DNA of 52,212 nt from positions 1 through 52,212 of the forward strand of contig JAGGUV010000095.1 of the NCBI GenBank assembly GCA_021158345.1. The letters run 5' to 3'. The DNA is from Bacteroidales bacterium. GTDB taxonomy: Bacteria; Bacteroidota; Bacteroidia; Bacteroidales; AUK083. A program made the translations under genes and the position numbers. This document shows, in pieces, positions 30,208 to 42,147 of this stretch; the stretch's first letter is position 1, and each line of letters begins with the position of its first letter. Below the pieces are notes generated by a model, which saw only the letters and a program-made list of their open reading frames with translations, was not told where the DNA came from and made no database searches.

Positions 30208-30576
30208 ATGAAAAAGAAAGTTTTAGTAATAGACGATGAAAGAAGCATCAGATTATTATTAGAAAATTATTTGAAAAAAGATTACCAGGTGGTAACAAAA
30301 GAAAATGGACTTGAAGGACTTAACTGGTTACAAGAAGGTAATATGCCTGATATAATAATAGTTGATATTCAGATGCCGACACTTGACGGTATTGCTGTTG
30401 TTAAAAACATCAGAGCAAGCGGTTTTTTTAAAAAAATTCCTATAATAATGTTAACAGGCATTGAAAGTAGCTCTGAAAAAATAAAATGCTTAAAATTAGG
30501 AGCAAACGACTATTTAGTAAAACCTTTTAATCCTGAAGAATTATCACTAAGAATTGAATTATTATTAAACAAATAA
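30208..30576 (+). CDS. Stand-alone response regulator receiver (CheY-like)
   Basis: VLVIDDERS, IIIVDIQMPTLDGI (phosphoacceptor Asp), IIMLTG, DYLVKPF. Confidence 0.95.
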   Translation: MKKKVLVIDDERSIRLLLENYLKKDYQVVTKENGLEGLNWLQEGNMPDIIIVDIQMPTLDGIAVVKNIRASGFFKKIPIIMLTGIESSSEKIKCLKLGANDYLVKPFNPEELSLRIELLLNK

Positions 30577-30580
30577 TTTT

Positions 30581-31780
30581 ATGAATGAGAATAAAAAATA
30601 TTCATTACTTTATATTGGTCGTGATAATAATTTTATACAATTTCTAAATGAAAATTCTGATAAATTCACATTTTACTTAAAAGAAAATCCTCTTTTCGCT
30701 AATGAATTTCTAAATAATAATAAAGATATTACCATTGATGTTATTATTTGTGAAACAAATCTACCGGGGAGCAATGGCATAGAAGTATATAAAATGCTTT
30801 CAAAAAAATTATTTTATAAAAATACACCTTTTATTCTTGTTAATGATAAAGAATTTACCCCTGATACTATAAAATATGCATTAGAAAATGGTATCAGTGA
30901 TTATTTTGTAAAACCCATTAACGCTAATGACCTTTTAATAAGAATTGAATATCTGATACTATTTAAAAAAACTCATCATATAAAAAACCAATCTAAAAAA
31001 ATAAAATATAAAAAAACAAAATATAAAATTCCAACAACAAAAAGGATTTTTGACATTGTTTTTTCAGGATTAGCATTACTAATTTTATCACCTATACTAC
31101 TATTAACAGCATTAATAATTTGGATAGATTCAGGATTTAAAGGCAATGTTTTCTATAAATCAAAAAGAGTTGGTACAGGTTATAAAATATTTGATTTCTA
31201 TAAATTCCGTTCAATGAAAATTGGCGCTGATAAAGAATTAAAAGATTTAAAAACATTAAATCAATATCAGGAAACAGAACCATTTGAAATTGATTTTGAT
31301 AAAGAATGTCCAAGATGTAAAAAACTTGGACATCCATGTTCAACAATTCTTATCATAGGCGATAAAAAGATATGTGAGAACTTTTATCTTGCTCAAAAAA
31401 AACAAAATGCTAATTCTACATTTATTAAAATAATGAATGACCCTAGAATAACAAGATTCGGTAAATTTATCCGTAAAACTAGTATCGATGAATTACCACA
31501 ATTAATTAATGTATTAAAAGGTGACATGTCAATTGTAGGCAATAGACCTTTGCCTTTATATGAAGCAGAATTACTAACTTCTGATAACTGGACAGAAAGA
31601 TTTTTAGCACCTGCAGGTATTACAGGACTCTGGCAGATTAGTAAAAGAGGTAAAGCAGATATGTCGGAGGAAGAAAGAAAAAACCTTGACAATGAATATG
31701 CTAAAAAAAATTCATTCTGGTTTGATATTAAAATCATATTAAAAACTATTCCTGCTTTATTTCAAAAAGAAAACGTATAA
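30581..31780 (+). CDS. Degenerate receiver domain fused to a bacterial sugar transferase (undecaprenyl-phosphate phosphoglycosyltransferase)
   Basis: N-terminal REC-like fold with GR in place of the acidic pair and E58 at the Asp position; C-terminal KRIFDIVFSGLALLILSPILLLTALII...KFRSMKIGAD...RITRFGKFIRKTSIDELPQLINVLKGDMSIVGNRPLP. Confidence 0.92.
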   Translation: MNENKKYSLLYIGRDNNFIQFLNENSDKFTFYLKENPLFANEFLNNNKDITIDVIICETNLPGSNGIEVYKMLSKKLFYKNTPFILVNDKEFTPDTIKYALENGISDYFVKPINANDLLIRIEYLILFKKTHHIKNQSKKIKYKKTKYKIPTTKRIFDIVFSGLALLILSPILLLTALIIWIDSGFKGNVFYKSKRVGTGYKIFDFYKFRSMKIGADKELKDLKTLNQYQETEPFEIDFDKECPRCKKLGHPCSTILIIGDKKICENFYLAQKKQNANSTFIKIMNDPRITRFGKFIRKTSIDELPQLINVLKGDMSIVGNRPLPLYEAELLTSDNWTERFLAPAGITGLWQISKRGKADMSEEERKNLDNEYAKKNSFWFDIKIILKTIPALFQKENV

Positions 31781-31894: not shown

Positions 31895-32662
31895 ATGTTT
31901 TTAGTAAAAAATAAAGTCTCTTTTTATATAATCTTTTTATTAACTATTCTATCAAATATTTGTCATTCTCAAGATACAAAAAATGACAATTATTTTAATC
32001 CGTTAACAGACGATATAACAAATAAAATTCCCCCTTTGGAAATATTAATTGATTCTGCTATTGCTAACGACCCAAATGTAAAAACTGAATTATTACAATT
32101 AGCTATCGACAGATATCAGATTAGTTCATCAAAACGCAACTGGACAAAGAGCCTTGGTGTTCAAGGGATGTTAGATTGGGGCACCTGGTATTATGACGAC
32201 AAAGATGAATTATCAAATCTAAATCGTTTTTATCTTACAACTTCTATGCGTACTGTTTATGAGGCGGGAGTTTTTATTAAAATGCCTATTAATGATTTCT
32301 ATGACAGAAGAAACCAAATTAATATAAGCAAAAAACGCCTTGAACAAACAATGATTCAAAAAGAAAAAAGAATAAGAGAGATACGTCAAATTGTAATAAC
32401 AGAATATAATATTTTACTTAAAAATCAAAATCTTATTAAAGTAGCTAACTCATTTCAACAATACACTTTGGTTCAGATGCGAATGGCTGAAAATCAATTT
32501 CTAAACCATGAAATTTCCATTGCTGAATTGGCAAGATTAAAAGAAATACAAAAAACCGGTCAAGTAGAATTAGAAAAATATAAAGGAGACTATATTAATG
32601 CATATATGATGTTGCAAGAAATAACAGGAATAAAATTTAATCTAATTAATGAATTAAAATAA
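31895..32662 (+). CDS. Short TolC-like/outer membrane efflux-type protein
   Basis: 255 aa; signal peptide; helical segments PPLEILIDSAIANDPNVKTELLQLAIDRYQISSSKRNW... typical of OEP repeats. Confidence 0.75.
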   Translation: MFLVKNKVSFYIIFLLTILSNICHSQDTKNDNYFNPLTDDITNKIPPLEILIDSAIANDPNVKTELLQLAIDRYQISSSKRNWTKSLGVQGMLDWGTWYYDDKDELSNLNRFYLTTSMRTVYEAGVFIKMPINDFYDRRNQINISKKRLEQTMIQKEKRIREIRQIVITEYNILLKNQNLIKVANSFQQYTLVQMRMAENQFLNHEISIAELARLKEIQKTGQVELEKYKGDYINAYMMLQEITGIKFNLINELK

Positions 32663-32664
32663 TT

Positions 32665-35328
32665 ATGGATATCAAGCAATTAATCAGATTATTCAAACAA
32701 CATTTCTTACTATTATTAATAGTTCCTATTATTCTTGCTGTTGCTGTATATTACTTAACAAAAAATCAAGGTAAAAAATATACATCTAATACAATAGTAT
32801 ATACAGGATTTGCTTCAGGATATTCCATAGAATCTACAGATAGAAGAAATATTGACTATTTTAGTATAAATATGCAGTTTGATAATTTAATAAATATAAT
32901 TAAATCACGTCAAACTATTGAAAATACTGCTATACGTTTATTAGCACAAGATCTCTCATTGGAACATCCCGATCCTGAATTTATCTCTAAAAAATCATAT
33001 AAAGAATTACAAAGAATTGTTCCCGAAGAAGTTAAGGACCTTGTTGTAAAAAACAACAGATCTGGACAGGAAAGAAAAAAAGCCGAACAAATAAATTTGC
33101 TTGAAGAACAAATTCATAAACTCGAAAATCAATTATCTGATAAAAAAGAAAAAATAGATAAAGTTAAAAATAATGAACAGTTAAGTAATAATAACACTCA
33201 AACCGAAATAGAAACTAAATCTGAAAATAATTTTATTTTTCATACGGTTCAGCCCGGGGAGTCAATCTCTTTGATAGCAAGTAAATATGGCGTTTCCATT
33301 GGAGAATTAAAATATTTGAATCATCTTACTTCTGATCAAATAGCAGAAGGGGAAAAATTAATAATTGCATATTCGCCTGTTAAAATCAAAAAAAGCCCGA
33401 AAACTGAAGATAAAACAAAAACACCACAGATAATATATTCTGAAAAAAAAATACTGCCTGATTATATTTCTATGTCTGATTATGAAAAAACTGTAAAAAA
33501 TTTAACTGAATATTATCATCAAAATGACACAAATTTTGTTTATGAACTTTTAAATTATGATCATAAACATTATAGTATTAAAGCTATTTCAGCAAATGCA
33601 AAAATATATAGAATAAGTAATTCGGACTTAGTGAGAGTTAGCTACACACTGGATGATCCGGGAATCTGTCAACAAACTCTAAAATTACTTACAGAAGTTT
33701 TTATTTTAAATTACAAATTTTTAAAAGAAGTTCAAACAGATGCCGTATTAAATTATTTTCAGGAGCAAGTAGCAGCAGCAAATAAAAGACTAAAAGATGC
33801 CGAAGATAGACTTTTAAAATTCAATCAAGATAATAATATTATTAACTATTACGAACAAAGTAAATATATTGCAGTACAAAAAGAAGATTTAGATAAATAT
33901 TATCAAGACGAACAAATACGATTATCTTCTGCAGCAGCAGCATTAAAAAAAATAGAAAGCAAACTTACAGTTAAAGACAGCATTTATTTAAAAAGTGATG
34001 AGATAAGTAAAAACCGTGACAAGCTTTCAGCAATATCCGAGAAAATTATTATTAATGAAATATCTAACAATAATGACCCTCTGGAAATTCAAAAATTAAA
34101 GAAATTACAAGAAAACTCAGAAAAAATAAAAAATAAAATTAAAGAATACGTTGATCAGCTTTATTTATATTCAAATACAACCGAGGGTATTCCAATAAAA
34201 GATTTACTTACAAATTGGTTAAAAAATGCTTTAACATACGAAGAAGCTAAAGCAAGTTTAAGAGTATTAAGTGGAAGAAAATTAGATTTTCTGAAAACAT
34301 ATCAAATATTTGCACCTTTAGGAGCAACTCTAAAACGTATTGAAAGAGAAATAAGTATTGAAGAAAAATCATATCTCGAAAATTTAAGAAGTCTGAACCT
34401 TGCCAAAATGAAACAGCAAAACCTGGCTATGTCTTCTAATATGAAAATTGTTGATGAGCCTTATTTCCCTATTGCTGCTAATCCTTCTAAAACAAAATTA
34501 TTAATTCTTCTTGCAGCTTTTGCCGGTTTTATAATTATTGCATTTATTATTTTATTATTAGAATATACTGATACATCAATCAGAACACCTGAACATGTTG
34601 AAAAATTAACTAAGCTAAAACTTGCAGGTGCATATCCTTTTATTAATGATGAATTTGATGATAAACTAAACAATATTTCCGACAGATTAATTGAGATGAT
34701 TATTCAGAATATTTATCTTAAGCTAATTTATAAATCTAATAATCATCATGAGAAACCTTTTTTAATATTAGTTTTTAGCACACAAGACCAAACCGGAAAA
34801 ACTTACATAACTAATAAAATCATTAAAGCCCTTCAAAACACAGGCGAAAAAACTCTTTATTTAAACTATACAAAAAATAAACTCAACAATATCTCAGAGA
34901 ACAATAATCATAAAATAACTTATACTCTAAATAATAAATTTTATGAAACGAAAAATATTGGCGATTTATTTAATAAAAAATCTATCAGAGAAAAAAATTA
35001 TCACTATGATTATATCTTTGTTGAAATACCTTCATTGATATTCAATCCAATACCTATTGATTTGATGAGTTCTATTGATTTACCTATATTATTTGTAAGT
35101 GCTAATCATCATTGGAGAAAAGCAGATATTTCCGCATTAAATATTTTACAAGATGTTTCTTTAGAAAAGCCACTTTTAGTGCTTAATAATACGGAATTAT
35201 TTGCTTTAGAAGACGTTATCACCAAAATACCACAAAAAAGCAAAACATTTAAAACAATAAAAAATATTTTAACGTTCCCATTTAAAATAAGGGTTAATTT
35301 TGGAATTGATAAAAGAGAAAATAAATGA
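32665..35328 (+). CDS. Polysaccharide co-polymerase (Wzz/Wzc-like) with internal LysM and degenerate C-terminal BY-kinase-like domain
   Basis: N-terminal TM, long coiled coil, second TM before cytoplasmic domain; LysM HTVQPGESISLIASKYGVSIGELKYLNHLTSDQIAEGEKLII at about 33238-33372. Confidence 0.88.
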   Translation: MDIKQLIRLFKQHFLLLLIVPIILAVAVYYLTKNQGKKYTSNTIVYTGFASGYSIESTDRRNIDYFSINMQFDNLINIIKSRQTIENTAIRLLAQDLSLEHPDPEFISKKSYKELQRIVPEEVKDLVVKNNRSGQERKKAEQINLLEEQIHKLENQLSDKKEKIDKVKNNEQLSNNNTQTEIETKSENNFIFHTVQPGESISLIASKYGVSIGELKYLNHLTSDQIAEGEKLIIAYSPVKIKKSPKTEDKTKTPQIIYSEKKILPDYISMSDYEKTVKNLTEYYHQNDTNFVYELLNYDHKHYSIKAISANAKIYRISNSDLVRVSYTLDDPGICQQTLKLLTEVFILNYKFLKEVQTDAVLNYFQEQVAAANKRLKDAEDRLLKFNQDNNIINYYEQSKYIAVQKEDLDKYYQDEQIRLSSAAAALKKIESKLTVKDSIYLKSDEISKNRDKLSAISEKIIINEISNNNDPLEIQKLKKLQENSEKIKNKIKEYVDQLYLYSNTTEGIPIKDLLTNWLKNALTYEEAKASLRVLSGRKLDFLKTYQIFAPLGATLKRIEREISIEEKSYLENLRSLNLAKMKQQNLAMSSNMKIVDEPYFPIAANPSKTKLLILLAAFAGFIIIAFIILLLEYTDTSIRTPEHVEKLTKLKLAGAYPFINDEFDDKLNNISDRLIEMIIQNIYLKLIYKSNNHHEKPFLILVFSTQDQTGKTYITNKIIKALQNTGEKTLYLNYTKNKLNNISENNNHKITYTLNNKFYETKNIGDLFNKKSIREKNYHYDYIFVEIPSLIFNPIPIDLMSSIDLPILFVSANHHWRKADISALNILQDVSLEKPLLVLNNTELFALEDVITKIPQKSKTFKTIKNILTFPFKIRVNFGIDKRENK

Positions 35329-36701
35329 CCAATTTATTAAAAAAAACTTTATCAAACAATAATATTCTATCCCTTTCGAGTAATGTGTTTGTTGCAGTGT
35401 TTGGATTAATAAGTTTTATTTTATTAACACGAACATTAAAGCAAGATATATTTGGAGAATGGGTATTATTTATTACAGCATCAAATTTTATTGAGATGCT
35501 ACGTTTTGGAATTACACGTACTGCAATAATTCGTTTTTTGTCGGGCGTCAAAGGAGAAGAAAAACAAAAATTTATTGGGTCCAACTGGGTAATCGGTTTA
35601 ATAATTACTTTAATACTAATTTCAATAATCTGGATTTCACTTTTATTATTCCCAGAAACTATTAAACAATCAGGATATAATTTATTTTTCACATGGTATC
35701 CTATTCTTGCAATAATCAATATGCCATTCAACAATGCTTTATCAATATTACAGGCAGATCAAAAATTTAATAAAATTCTCATTATTCGTTTAATTAATGT
35801 TGGCACATTCGTTATATTTCTAATTTTTAATTTATTATTTATAAAATGGGGAATAATTAATATCCTTTATTCATATTTAACAATTAATCTTTTTACTTCG
35901 CTTATTTGTATTTTATTTAAATGGGCAGGATTAAAATATATTTTTAAAGCAACGCGAGCCACTAATAAAATTATATTAAATTTCGGTAAATATACAACAG
36001 GTACTCTCATAGGCAGTAATCTGCTCAAAAGCTCCGACTCATTTATTATAGGATTAAGTCCAATTCTTGGCACAACAGGGGTTGCTCTTTATAGTATTCC
36101 TCTTAAACTCACAGAAATACTCGAAATACCTATACGTAGTTTTATTGCCACAGCTTTTCCAATTATGTCTAAAGCCAGCATAGAAAATAAAATTAATGAG
36201 GTTAAAAAAACTTATTACACATATTCCGGTGCAACTTTTTTTCTCCTACTCCCAATTATTATTATCTGTATTATTTTTGCAGAAAAATTAGTTGTATTTT
36301 TAGGTGGTGAAAGCTATGCTGAAACTGCCAATATTTTCAGAGTGTTCTGTATTTACGGTCTTTTTCTACCTCTTGATAAATTTACAGGCGTTACATTAGA
36401 CAGTATTAACAGACCTAAAAAAAACTTTTTCAAAGTTATTTATATGACTTCTGCAAATATTATTGGCGATCTTGTTGCTGTATTTGTTCTCATCAAAATT
36501 TTTCCTAATTTAAACAATATTTCATTGCTCATTTCTGTCTCAGCAGTTACTGTTGTTATGATACTTGTTGGACTTTTTGTTGGTTTTAAATATCTTAATA
36601 AAGAAATAAATATTAATTTTAAAAATAATTTTAAATATGGGATTAAATTTTATAAAAATCTTTTAAGTAAAATTTCATTTTTTAATCCCAAGAATTATTA
36701 A
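35325..36701 (+). CDS. Polysaccharide flippase (Wzx/MATE-like oligosaccharide transporter)
   Basis: 458 aa polytopic; VFGLISFILLTRTLKQDIFGEWVL; 4-nt overlap with upstream gene. Confidence 0.88.
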   Translation: MTNLLKKTLSNNNILSLSSNVFVAVFGLISFILLTRTLKQDIFGEWVLFITASNFIEMLRFGITRTAIIRFLSGVKGEEKQKFIGSNWVIGLIITLILISIIWISLLLFPETIKQSGYNLFFTWYPILAIINMPFNNALSILQADQKFNKILIIRLINVGTFVIFLIFNLLFIKWGIINILYSYLTINLFTSLICILFKWAGLKYIFKATRATNKIILNFGKYTTGTLIGSNLLKSSDSFIIGLSPILGTTGVALYSIPLKLTEILEIPIRSFIATAFPIMSKASIENKINEVKKTYYTYSGATFFLLLPIIIICIIFAEKLVVFLGGESYAETANIFRVFCIYGLFLPLDKFTGVTLDSINRPKKNFFKVIYMTSANIIGDLVAVFVLIKIFPNLNNISLLISVSAVTVVMILVGLFVGFKYLNKEININFKNNFKYGIKFYKNLLSKISFFNPKNY

Positions 36702-36726: not shown

Positions 36727-38190
36727 ATGTTAAATAAATATAAACAATATTCTGGTTCATTAATACTTAAAAAACCTCTGGTATTATTAATACTGTTTGC
36801 AGCAGTAATACTAATAGCTTTATTAATATCATACGGGGGTATAAAGATTACTATTGCCCTTTTGTTTCTACCGTTTATTATAGTGTATTTTAATTTTTTT
36901 TTTAAAATTCCTGCAATAGGTTTAATATCAGTGTTAATATTTGCCTTTACTGCCATAGGTTTAAACAGATATATTTTAAATGTCCCCCTTGGACTTAGTA
37001 TAGATGTTTTTTTAGTATTAACATATATTGCCTTATTTTTTAAATTATTTTATGAAAAAGAAAAATGGGCATTAATAAAAAATGACCTTTCTTTAATAGC
37101 ATTAATATGGTTTATATATGGATTATTAGAATTTTTTAATCCTTTAGCATTAAGCAAATTAGCATGGCTTTACGCTATGCGTGGTATGTCATTATATTTT
37201 TTGTTAACAATACCACTTGCATATCTTCTATTTAACGATTTTAAATATTTAAAAAATTTTCTATATATATGGGCATTTTTCTCAATACTTGCCACATTAA
37301 AAGGCTGCATGCAGCTATATTATAAACCTGACTATGCAGAGCAACGCTGGCTTGATGCCGGAGGAGGTATTACACATATATTATTTGGCGAACTCAGGGT
37401 CTTTTCTTTTTACAGTGATGCAGGTCAATTTGGTGCTGCTCAGGGACAAGCTGGTATTGTTGGTACTATTGTAGCATTAAATTCAAAAAAGATAAAAAAT
37501 AAAATAATTTTTGGATTAATGGGTCTTGCAGGTTTTTATGGTATGATTATATCAGGGACAAGAGGAGCCATGATAGTACCAATGTTTGGTGCTTTTTTAT
37601 ATCTTATTCATAGAAAAAATATAAAGACCTTAGCTATTGGTCTTTTAATAATGGCAGCCGTTTTTGTATTTTTCAGATATACATGGATAGGTCAAAGTAA
37701 TTCCCAAATAAGAAGGATGAGAACAGGCTTTAGACCAACAGATGATATCTCACTACAAGTAAGACTTAATAATAGAAAAATATTAAAAGCGTATCTTGCT
37801 GACAAGCCTTTTGGTGGTGGCATTGGAAGTGCAGGTGACTGGGGTAGAAGATTCTCTCCTCAAGGCTTTCTTGCTAATGTGCCTACTGATAGTTGGTATG
37901 TTCAAATATGGGCTGAACAAGGTATTGTTGGCCTTGTTCTTTATCTTTCGCTTATGATTTATATTCTTATTAAAGGCTCTTTTCTTATAATGTTCAAAAT
38001 CAACCACCCCATATTATTTGGCATTTCCAGTGCCCTTTTATGTGGCATCTTTGGAAGCCTGGGCGCCAGCTATGGTAATGGTGTATTTGGGCAATTACCC
38101 AGCGGAATATTAAATTATTTAAGCATGGCTTTTATTTTTATGGCTCCGCAATTTGACAAAAGATTAAATACTAAAAATATTATTTTTTAA
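36727..38190 (+). CDS. O-antigen ligase/polymerase family membrane protein (Wzy-like)
   Basis: 487 aa polytopic; GFYGMIISGTRGAMIVPMFGAFLY, PTDSWYVQIWAEQGIVGLVLYLSLM. Confidence 0.87.
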   Translation: MLNKYKQYSGSLILKKPLVLLILFAAVILIALLISYGGIKITIALLFLPFIIVYFNFFFKIPAIGLISVLIFAFTAIGLNRYILNVPLGLSIDVFLVLTYIALFFKLFYEKEKWALIKNDLSLIALIWFIYGLLEFFNPLALSKLAWLYAMRGMSLYFLLTIPLAYLLFNDFKYLKNFLYIWAFFSILATLKGCMQLYYKPDYAEQRWLDAGGGITHILFGELRVFSFYSDAGQFGAAQGQAGIVGTIVALNSKKIKNKIIFGLMGLAGFYGMIISGTRGAMIVPMFGAFLYLIHRKNIKTLAIGLLIMAAVFVFFRYTWIGQSNSQIRRMRTGFRPTDDISLQVRLNNRKILKAYLADKPFGGGIGSAGDWGRRFSPQGFLANVPTDSWYVQIWAEQGIVGLVLYLSLMIYILIKGSFLIMFKINHPILFGISSALLCGIFGSLGASYGNGVFGQLPSGILNYLSMAFIFMAPQFDKRLNTKNIIF

Positions 38191-38254: not shown

Positions 38255-39055
38255 ATGGTAATTAATAATAACATTCTATTAAAAACAGCTTTAACTGCCT
38301 CATATAAGGCAGCCTGTTCAATTTTGAAAATATATAACTCTGACTTTAATTTTGAACTTAAAAAAGATAATAGTCCTATTACTTTAGCTGATAAAGAATC
38401 AAATATTATTATTACTGATATTTTAAAAACCACTAATATCCCTATTATTAGCGAAGAATCAAAAAAAATACCATATGATATCAGAAAAAATTATGAATAT
38501 ACCTGGATTGTTGATCCTTTAGATGGAACAAAAGAATTTATTAAAAGAAATGGAGAGTTTGCAATAAACATTGCATTAGCACATAAAGGAAATGTAATTA
38601 TTGGAGTAATATGTGTACCTTATTTAAATATAATTTATTTTGCATCAAATAATATTGGTTCTTATAAACTTAATAATTTTAAATTATATGATATTCCAAA
38701 TATAAGTCTTGATGAAATTATTAAATCATCAAAAAAACTACCTTTAAAAAGTAACAAAGAAAAAATTATACTTTGTAGTAACTCGCATTTAAATAATGAA
38801 ACTAAAAATTTTATTGAAAAATTATCTGATAAAAATTATAAAATAATAAAAAAAGGCAGTTCAATAAAATTTGGGATAATTGCAGAAGGCAAAGCAGATA
38901 TTTATCCAAGATTATCACCAACAATGGAATGGGACACTGCTGCCGGTCAGATAATTGTAGAGCAAACCGGGAAAAAAATTCTTAATTTCAACACAAGAGA
39001 AACATTAAAATATAATAAAAAAGATTTAAAAAACCCTAGTTTTATAATTGAATAA
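38255..39055 (+). CDS. cysQ: 3'(2'),5'-bisphosphate nucleotidase CysQ
   Basis: SPITLADKESN, IISEESKKIPYDIR, WIVDPLDGTKEFIKRNGEFAINIAL, MEWDTAAGQIIVEQTG. Confidence 0.92.
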   Translation: MVINNNILLKTALTASYKAACSILKIYNSDFNFELKKDNSPITLADKESNIIITDILKTTNIPIISEESKKIPYDIRKNYEYTWIVDPLDGTKEFIKRNGEFAINIALAHKGNVIIGVICVPYLNIIYFASNNIGSYKLNNFKLYDIPNISLDEIIKSSKKLPLKSNKEKIILCSNSHLNNETKNFIEKLSDKNYKIIKKGSSIKFGIIAEGKADIYPRLSPTMEWDTAAGQIIVEQTGKKILNFNTRETLKYNKKDLKNPSFIIE

Positions 39056-39066
39056 TTTTTATTATT

Positions 39067-39996
39067 ATGAGTAAAAACAATACATATCCATTAGTTTCAA
39101 TAATTACCATTAATTATGACCATCCTGAAGTAACATGTGATCTTCTTGAATCATTAAAAAAAATAACCTATCCTAATATTGAAATAATTGTGATTGATAA
39201 TGCCTCACCAAATGACGATCCTTCAATTATAAAAGAAAAATATCCTGAAATAATTTTTATTCAAAATAAAAAAAATTATGGCTTTGCAGTTGGTAATAAT
39301 ATTGGAATAAAAAAAGCAAAAGGTAAATATATTTTACTGTTAAACAATGATACTGTTGTTGATGAAAAATTTTTAGAGCCTTTAGTATTAAAATGTGAAT
39401 CGGATAAATCAATTGGAGCAGTAAGTCCGAAAATACGATTTCACTACTCTCCTGAAACAATACAATATGCTGGATTAACTCCAATTAATTCATATACTGT
39501 AAGAAGTAAAGGCATAGGATTTGGTGAGAAAGACAGAGGACAATATGAAGAAGACAGGATAACAGCCTATGCTCATGGTGCTGCTATGCTTTTCCCAAAA
39601 GAAATCCTAAAAAAAGTTGGTATGATGTCTGATATTTTCTTCTTGTATTACGAAGAACTGGATTGGGGTTACAGACTAAGACAAGCAGGATATAAAATTT
39701 ATTACGTGCATAATTCTCTTATTTATCATAAAGAATCAATGTCAACAGGGAAATTAAGTCCTTTTAAAATTTATTATCTCAACAGAAGCAGAATTTTGTA
39801 TATGCGTAGAAATATTCATGGAATAAAATTTGTCATTGGTTTATTTTTTCAATTATTTTTTTCAATACCAAAAAATGCTTTATTTTATCTTTTAAAAGGA
39901 AAATATAAATTATGTTTTGCTTACTTCAGAGCTATTTTTTGGCATATAAAAAATATTTTTAACAAAAAAATACATGAAAATATTTATTACAAATAA
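39067..39996 (+). CDS. Glycosyltransferase family 2 (rhamnosyltransferase-like)
   Basis: VSIITINYDHPEVTCDLLESL, VIDNAS, LLLNNDTVVD, FLYYEELDWGYRLRQAGYKI. Confidence 0.93.
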   Translation: MSKNNTYPLVSIITINYDHPEVTCDLLESLKKITYPNIEIIVIDNASPNDDPSIIKEKYPEIIFIQNKKNYGFAVGNNIGIKKAKGKYILLLNNDTVVDEKFLEPLVLKCESDKSIGAVSPKIRFHYSPETIQYAGLTPINSYTVRSKGIGFGEKDRGQYEEDRITAYAHGAAMLFPKEILKKVGMMSDIFFLYYEELDWGYRLRQAGYKIYYVHNSLIYHKESMSTGKLSPFKIYYLNRSRILYMRRNIHGIKFVIGLFFQLFFSIPKNALFYLLKGKYKLCFAYFRAIFWHIKNIFNKKIHENIYYK

Positions 39997-40002
39997 TTTT
40001 CA

Positions 40003-40938
40003 ATGGTAAGAAAAAAAAGAAAAAAATATTATCCTCTTGTATCAATTGTTACAGTTAATTACAACAATTCAAAAGACACTTGTGAATTAATTGAATCACT
40101 TAATAAAATCACATACCCAAATATTGAAATAATTGTTGTGGATAATGCTTCAAAAGAAGACAACCCTATAAATATAAAATATAAACATCCAAATATTGTT
40201 TTCATACAAAATCCTATAAATTATGGATTTGCAGCAGGGAATAATTTTGGTATTATGAAAGCGAGAGGCAAATATGTTCTATTATTAAATAACGATACTA
40301 TTGTTGAGCCTAATTTTATGGAGCCTCTTATTGACAAGATGGAATCAGACGAAACAATAGGTGCTGTAAGTCCTAAATTAAGATATTATTACGATCCTAA
40401 AATAATTCAATATGCAGGCTATACACCTTTAAACAAATATACATTAAGAAATAATGCCATTGGTTGTCGCGAAAAGGATATTGGTCAATATGATGAAGAC
40501 AGGATAACCGCCTATGCTCATGGTGCAGCTATGATGGTTCCTATGAGCCTGATAAAAAAAATCGGAATGATGTCATATACTTTTTTCCTTTACTACGAAG
40601 AAGCAGACTGGTGTGTGAGGATTAAAAAAGCAGGATATAAAATCTATTATGTCCATAATTCTCTTGTTTATCATAAAGAATCTATGTCAACAGGAAAATT
40701 AAGTCCAATGAAAATATACTATTTAAACAGAAACCGCATAGTTTTTATGAGACGAAACATCACAGGAATAAATTTTTTAATTGCCTTACTCTACCAGATT
40801 TTAATAGCAATACCAAAAAATGCTTTCTCTTTTCTTTTAAAAGGGAAAGTAAAACTTTTTCTTGCTTATTACAGAGCTATTGGCTGGAATATTACAAATA
40901 TGTTTAATAAAGAAATTCATGAAAACCCAATGTTATAA
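40003..40938 (+). CDS. Glycosyltransferase family 2, tandem paralog of the preceding gene
   Basis: VSIVTVNYNNSKDTCELIESL, LLLNNDTIVE, FLYYEEADWCVRIKKAGYKIYYVHNSLVYHKESMSTGKLSP. Confidence 0.93.
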   Translation: MVRKKRKKYYPLVSIVTVNYNNSKDTCELIESLNKITYPNIEIIVVDNASKEDNPINIKYKHPNIVFIQNPINYGFAAGNNFGIMKARGKYVLLLNNDTIVEPNFMEPLIDKMESDETIGAVSPKLRYYYDPKIIQYAGYTPLNKYTLRNNAIGCREKDIGQYDEDRITAYAHGAAMMVPMSLIKKIGMMSYTFFLYYEEADWCVRIKKAGYKIYYVHNSLVYHKESMSTGKLSPMKIYYLNRNRIVFMRRNITGINFLIALLYQILIAIPKNAFSFLLKGKVKLFLAYYRAIGWNITNMFNKEIHENPML

Positions 40939-40953
40939 TTAATCCTATCTGCC

Positions 40954-42147
40954 ATGAAAACATTTTTTCAAATAATCAATATTATACAAATAATAATTTT
41001 TGTCTATCTTTCAATATCCAGTTTATACTTTTTTATTTTCTCTTTTGCAAGTTTATTTACTAGGAAGAAAACATTTCCAAAATCAGAAAAAAAATTAAAA
41101 TTCGCAATTTTAATTCCAGGATACAAAGAAGATAATGTGATAGTTGATGTTGCTAAAAATGCTTTAAAACAAAATTATCCTCACAATTTATTTGACGTAG
41201 TTATTATTGCCGATTCTTTTAAAAGCGAAACATTAGCAGAACTTAAAAAATTGCCAATAATTACTATTGAAGTAGCATTTAAAAAAAGTACAAAATCAAA
41301 GGCATTAAACAAAGCAATGTCGCAGCTTACAAAAGATTATGATGTAGCAATAATTTTAGATGCAGACAACATCATGGAGCAGGACTTTATTGAAAAAATA
41401 AATAATGCAATGTTGGCAGGTAACACTATTATTCAGGGACACAGGACTGCAAAAAATTTAAATTCATCGTTTGCTATACTTGATGCAGTAAGTGAAGAAA
41501 TGAATAATAATATTTTCAGAAAAGGGCACAGAAATTTAGGTTTATCATCAGCAATTATCGGTTCGGGAATGGCTTTTAAATATGATTTTTTTAAAGCTCT
41601 TATGAAAAATATTACAGCTGTTGGAGGCTTTGACAAAGAAATTGAATTAAAAGTGTTGAAAGACAGATATAAAATTGAATATCTGGAAAATGCTTATGTT
41701 TATGATGAAAAAGTACAAAAGTCTGAAGTGTTTTCAAATCAAAGACGCAGATGGTTATCAGCACAAATACATTACTTTCGCAAAGACTTTCTTAATGCTT
41801 TGTGGCATCTTTTATCCAAAGGAAATATTGATTATTTCGACAAAGCATTACAATTTATTCTGCCACCACGAATACTTTTAATAGGAATATTATTTATTAT
41901 CTGCATTTTCTCATTATTTTTAAATCCTGTTAGTTTCACTATTGTGTGGCTAATAACTTTAACGGTTTGCATAATTACTTTTTTATTTTCTATTCCTAAA
42001 AAATTCTATAATTTAAAAACATTAAAAGCTATACTTTCTTTACCAAAAGGATTTATTTTAATGCTTTTATCACTATTAAATATAAAAGGAGCTAACAAAA
42101 AATTTATTCATACTGAACATAGTAATATTAATGAGGATAAAAAATAA
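40954..42147 (+). CDS. Membrane-anchored processive-type glycosyltransferase family 2
   Basis: FAILIPGYKEDNVI, IILDADNIMEQDFI, QRRRWLSAQIHYF; N-terminal and C-terminal TM segments. Confidence 0.9.
   Translation: MKTFFQIINIIQIIIFVYLSISSLYFFIFSFASLFTRKKTFPKSEKKLKFAILIPGYKEDNVIVDVAKNALKQNYPHNLFDVVIIADSFKSETLAELKKLPIITIEVAFKKSTKSKALNKAMSQLTKDYDVAIILDADNIMEQDFIEKINNAMLAGNTIIQGHRTAKNLNSSFAILDAVSEEMNNNIFRKGHRNLGLSSAIIGSGMAFKYDFFKALMKNITAVGGFDKEIELKVLKDRYKIEYLENAYVYDEKVQKSEVFSNQRRRWLSAQIHYFRKDFLNALWHLLSKGNIDYFDKALQFILPPRILLIGILFIICIFSLFLNPVSFTIVWLITLTVCIITFLFSIPKKFYNLKTLKAILSLPKGFILMLLSLLNIKGANKKFIHTEHSNINEDKK

Follow-up and report, generated by a model that had tools for sequence, protein, structure and literature searches.

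How do Wzx/Wzy-type polysaccharide exporters stay in register across the peptidoglycan? A locus of a Bacteroidales bacterium bears on this question, as its polysaccharide co-polymerase (PCP) carries a LysM domain, and to our knowledge the known Wzx/Wzy exporters have no wall-binding part in the co-polymerase. The window analysed here is the whole stretch of 52,212 nucleotides that holds this gene, corresponding to one contig (C167) of a 2.47-Mb assembly of 190 contigs, which was also scanned as a whole.

The co-polymerase and its LysM-containing insert

The features of the gene and its product are the following:

32665..35328, + strand: LysM-bearing PCP, 887 aa (open reading frame with ATG start; Wzz and LysM Pfam matches; PslE, Wzc and CapA-CapB profile matches)
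32701..32763, + strand: putative first transmembrane helix (TM1), about aa 13-33 (hydrophobic stretch; model helix 3-32, low confidence)
33055..33477, + strand: LysM-containing insert, aa 131-271 (wholly missing in most LysM-less homologues)
33241..33366, + strand: LysM domain, aa 193-234 (PF01476; alignment to AtlA 2mkx and to 4uz2)
33658..34437, + strand: predicted periplasmic coiled-coil region, about aa 332-591 (long helices, low-confidence model; PslE alignment)
34492..34566, + strand: putative second transmembrane helix (TM2), about aa 610-634 (hydrophobic stretch; model helix 607-634, low confidence)
34774..34812, + strand: degenerate P-loop FSTQDQTGKTYIT of the C-terminal BY-kinase-like domain (motif table)

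Judged by its profile matches, the product of positions 32665-35328 is a divergent but real PCP of the Wzz/PslE/Wzc type. The Wzz profile (PF02706) scored 22.5 bits on residues 1-89 in the protein scan, under its cut-off of 25.5, and 28.4 bits in the whole-genome scan, over it. This profile matches 15 of 36 members of the PCP family at E<=0.001, and GNVR was detected in 15 of the 36. The family profile in turn matches PslE 156-572 with E=1.2e-15, over the base, the coiled coil and TM2, and the Wzc structure with E=5.9e-12. The Wzz/Wzc-like identity proposed by a first-pass annotation is upheld by these matches to the PslE and Wzc structures. Like the PCP, PslE (PDB 9v6l, from Pseudomonas aeruginosa) and Wzc have a base, a coiled coil, TM2 and a BY-kinase-like cytoplasmic domain, but their alignments contain no counterpart to the LysM. 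The best NCBIfam match is the XrtA/PEP-CTERM chain-length determinant TIGR03007, a 498-position model that stops ahead of the cytoplasmic domain; it covers the base and the coil without the LysM, and its 30.8 bits are far under the model cut-off of 278.85. By analogy with related families, the PCP would expose this region on the periplasmic side and would form a ring. The AlphaFold2 model of the full-length protein, built from a two-row alignment and with a pLDDT of 35, was used for local secondary structure only. The same genome also has a 749-aa open reading frame with two Wzz matches (L174, contig C58, 25431-26897).

The LysM is held in an insert of about 140 aa in the periplasmic base domain, N-terminal to the coiled coil, past the first periplasmic helices and ahead of the region that aligns with PslE, from residue 156 of PslE onwards; its placement between TM1 and the coiled coil is as the first-pass annotation had stated. 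The domain itself, also claimed there, is a canonical LysM and was confirmed by PF01476, which covers residues 193-234 with profile positions 1-42 of 43 (E=6.1e-11, 42.5 bits, cut-off 20.9), and the whole-genome scan places it at the same site with 45.4 bits. In the low-confidence full-length model this region consists of a strand (E190-194), two helices (H201-208 and H212-219) and a strand (E231-235). The isolated LysM was modelled with a pLDDT of 77, and its top Foldseek matches in the PDB are mostly LysM domains, at weak scores (E>=0.26).

In the C-terminal BY-kinase-like domain (34774-35043) the nucleotide-binding motifs are degenerate, as they are throughout this family of homologues. The P-loop keeps GK[ST] (GKT here) and has lost its first Gly, the Walker A' Asp is lost (the motif reads LNYT), and Walker B has Glu for Asp (VEIP). 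Assignment as a BY-kinase, such as Wzc or CapB, was rejected, as Walker A, A' and B are not intact and the C-terminal tyrosine cluster is absent: the final 40 residues of the PCP do not include a single Tyr.

The putative outer membrane partner

Immediately upstream of the PCP, 2 bases from its start, ends the gene of an outer membrane protein:

31895..32662, + strand: TolC/OMF-like outer membrane protein (OEP) with one repeat and a signal peptide, 255 aa (PF02321 once, full-length, E=1.8e-14)

A PCP homologue was found in 69 of the 393 genomes searched within the order, and 60 of these 69 loci were analysed, which together with the window and L039 gives 62 proteins. An OEP gene adjoins the PCP in 59 of the 62 loci, two of the three exceptions being cut by a contig end, and the complete homologues in these 59 loci are 239-284 aa long. 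TolC and OprM belong with this protein to the common OEP family (PF02321), and OprM is weakly matched by it, but they have two repeats where the neighbour has one; the other OEP open frames of the genome (435-503 aa) likewise have two matches each. A half-length TolC would need twice the subunits, that is, a hexamer, for a 12-strand barrel. Elsewhere in the phylum, in other classes, OEP genes of single-repeat size likewise adjoin PCPs that lack a LysM.

Poly_export (PF02563) is absent from the window, and its sole match in the genome lies on another contig (C124). A Wza-dependent export system was accordingly rejected, as no PF02563 protein is encoded in the locus. That a single-repeat TolC-like protein so regularly accompanies the PCP points to an outer-membrane exit other than Wza. 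Compared with PslE and the Wzc type, the PCP has degenerate kinase-like motifs, and its putative partner takes the place of a Wza-type export protein. This partner may be more surprising than the LysM, and no paper on a TolC–PCP pairing was found in literature searches.

Recurrence, conservation and probable role of the LysM domain

One or two LysM domains, often a pair, are detected by HMM at exactly the same site in 29 of the 62 homologues. Because the domain recurs at this site in so many homologues, L039, an independently sequenced MAG contig, among them, chance or artefact can be excluded. The first-pass annotation had implied that LysM-bearing PCPs are rare, which did not hold: this order has many of them, and in another order of the same class four genomes of one family (f180) carry two LysMs each at this site. 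No LysM was present in the homologues taken from the phylum's other classes. Most LysM-less homologues align with residues 1-131 and then with 271-887, with zero residues in between, so that the LysM and its linkers constitute a discrete insert. At the insert site, L108 has a weak LysM-like stretch, and L099 and L111 have short inserts of 44-52 aa without a LysM. On a scaffold tree built without the insert columns, which is unrooted and in which gains are not separable from losses, LysM presence requires 5 state changes, versus about 21 under shuffling, and insert presence requires 3; a single clade of the LysM-bearing rows is rejected (AU p about 1e-58).

As half of the homologues do without it, the LysM is not essential to the exporter. 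A non-essential module with several state changes would suit a spatial cue, in which the LysM binds septal, polar or denuded peptidoglycan and localises export with no mechanical role, and FimV/HubP are known LysM-bearing localisers (PMC12918733). However, the locus shows no indication of polarity, and such a cue is hard to tell from anchoring by sequence. We regard this reading as quite unlikely.

The ligand can be approached through AtlA of Enterococcus faecalis, a hydrolase whose LysM (2mkx) aligns with that of the window over 45 ungapped residues (E=2.7e-6). Peptidoglycan binding by the AtlA domain is proven and its contacts are mainly main-chain (PMC4083421). AtlA residues G11, T13, N32 and I39 correspond to G198, S200, N219 and I226 of the PCP; on this alignment, most residues of the AtlA groove are kept. 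The PCP differs at F40, the sugar-stacking residue, which is Ala227. Glycan binding by the PCP LysM nevertheless appears plausible, because the AtlA contacts are mainly through the main chain and the F40A mutant retains about 25% of the binding (PMC4083421).

Conservation of the domain is high at particular HMM positions across 42 LysM domains, such as Asn27 (42/42), Gly38 (41/41) and Val3 (40/40). In the LysM clade, mean identity of the LysM is 0.45 with a gap fraction of 0.00, and that of the linkers is 0.36 and 0.16, with many gaps. Seven close pairs gave pN/pS values of 0.19 for the scaffold, 0.30 for the LysM and 0.44 for the linker, which are rough ratios given the high pS of some pairs. 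Purifying selection maintains the LysM, whereas its linkers drift. This selection, stronger than on the linkers, and the fold- and groove-defining residues retained in the 42 domains go against the reading that the LysM has ceased to bind glycan and serves in protein–protein contacts or as a structural part, or is carried along neutrally. That reading would be in line with the Ala at the position of F40 and with the LysM-less remnants of L099 and L111, but we consider it very improbable.

The best explanation, which we hold as probable, is that the LysMs tether the exporter formed by the PCP and the single-repeat OEP to the peptidoglycan. Anchoring to the wall had already been put forward in the first-pass annotation; it stands as the best-supported function, though as an inference, since most of the groove residues are kept, the domain is under purifying selection, one or two copies per chain occur in an oligomer-forming family, and there are precedents in other machines. 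Accessory peptidoglycan-anchoring domains of trans-envelope machines are established for TsaP and PilQ (AMIN) of type IV pili and for GspB of the T2SS, and such anchoring parts are said to be the less conserved ones of these machines (PMC9239104), which is also the case for the LysM here. In those systems the module belongs to a separate protein or to the secretin, whereas here it is on the polysaccharide co-polymerase itself. The replacement of AtlA F40 by Ala227 and the lack of a LysM in half of the homologues count against anchoring.

The model proposed here is that the PCP would be the inner-membrane co-polymerase of a Bacteroidota Wzx/Wzy-type export system and that it probably forms a ring, like Wzz, PslE and Wzc. 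Each subunit would extend a flexibly linked LysM from its base domain, and this LysM would bind glycan strands of the peptidoglycan. The resulting LysM ring would fasten the trans-envelope exporter, that is, the PCP with its single-repeat TolC-like partner, to the cell wall, and this tethering may help to align the inner-membrane ring with the outer-membrane channel. The domain, its insertion site, its recurrence, the selection on it, its groove residues and the conserved operon are observed, whereas binding to peptidoglycan and tethering, like the contact between PCP and OEP, are inferred. More tentatively, and with some doubt on our side, the locus may exemplify a Wza-free exporter of Bacteroidota in which a PCP ring sits directly on an outer-membrane channel of half-TolC subunits. 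In many lineages this exporter would also be clamped to peptidoglycan by LysMs arranged in a ring on the PCP.

LysM domains, PCPs and the wall anchoring of machines are each already known, and what appears to be new is their fusion in a PCP; in the open literature no paper was found on a LysM fused with a PCP, a Wzz or a chain-length determinant. With a fused LysM that changes presence several times at one site, and with natural LysM-less relatives, a direct test is possible.

Neighbouring genes and the exported polymer

The PCP sits in a Wzx/Wzy gene cluster, which, besides the OEP, comprises:

30208..30576, + strand: stand-alone response-regulator receiver (PF00072, E=1.2e-29)
30581..31780, + strand: receiver fused to a phosphoglycosyltransferase (PGT), the initiating sugar-phosphate transferase (PF02397, E=5e-59; PF00072)
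35325..36701, + strand: Wzx-type flippase (PF13440/PF01943)
36727..38190, + strand: Wzy/WaaL-type polymerase or ligase (PF04932, E=4e-12)
38255..42147, + strand: inositol-monophosphatase (IMPase)-family enzyme and three GT2 glycosyltransferases of the same cluster (Pfam)

All genes are on the + strand, in the order UvrB, receiver, receiver–PGT, OEP, LysM-bearing PCP, flippase, Wzy/ligase, IMPase-family enzyme and three GT2, and the PCP and flippase genes overlap by 4 bases at the PCP stop codon. The flippase and a Wzy_C protein lie directly downstream of the PCP, as they do in most homologous loci, most of which also retain the order receiver, receiver–PGT, OEP, PCP and Wzy; the flippase is absent from several distant ones. 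A neighbour supplying the LysM where the PCP is without one was rejected as a candidate, as the adjacent open reading frames of the loci examined contain no LysM.

The polymer handled by this cluster could itself be the ligand, the alternative that the first-pass annotation had offered beside anchoring. The LysM would then recognise the exported or growing GlcNAc-containing polysaccharide, for chain-length control or for hand-over to the channel. LysM domains generally bind GlcNAc-X-GlcNAc (PMC4083421), this one is located in the periplasmic domain of a chain-length protein, and the glycosyltransferase set is alike across many LysM-bearing loci, although it is largely conserved in itself and so does not tell polymer binding from peptidoglycan binding. 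The cluster shows no evident sign of a GlcNAc polymer, however, and the rest of the operon persists through gains or losses of the LysM; we judge this reading unlikely.

The window also encodes type IX secretion tails, which point to Bacteroidota. In the stand-alone receiver (30208-30576) the phospho-acceptor Asp is retained in all aligned loci. In 43 of 52 loci the PGT-fused receiver (30581-31780) carries a Glu there instead, and it is likely a pseudo-receiver. The PGT of this fusion contains a cysteine-rich, zinc-ribbon-like insert (CPRC...CS...IC), which is missing in distant loci and present in most of those related to the window.
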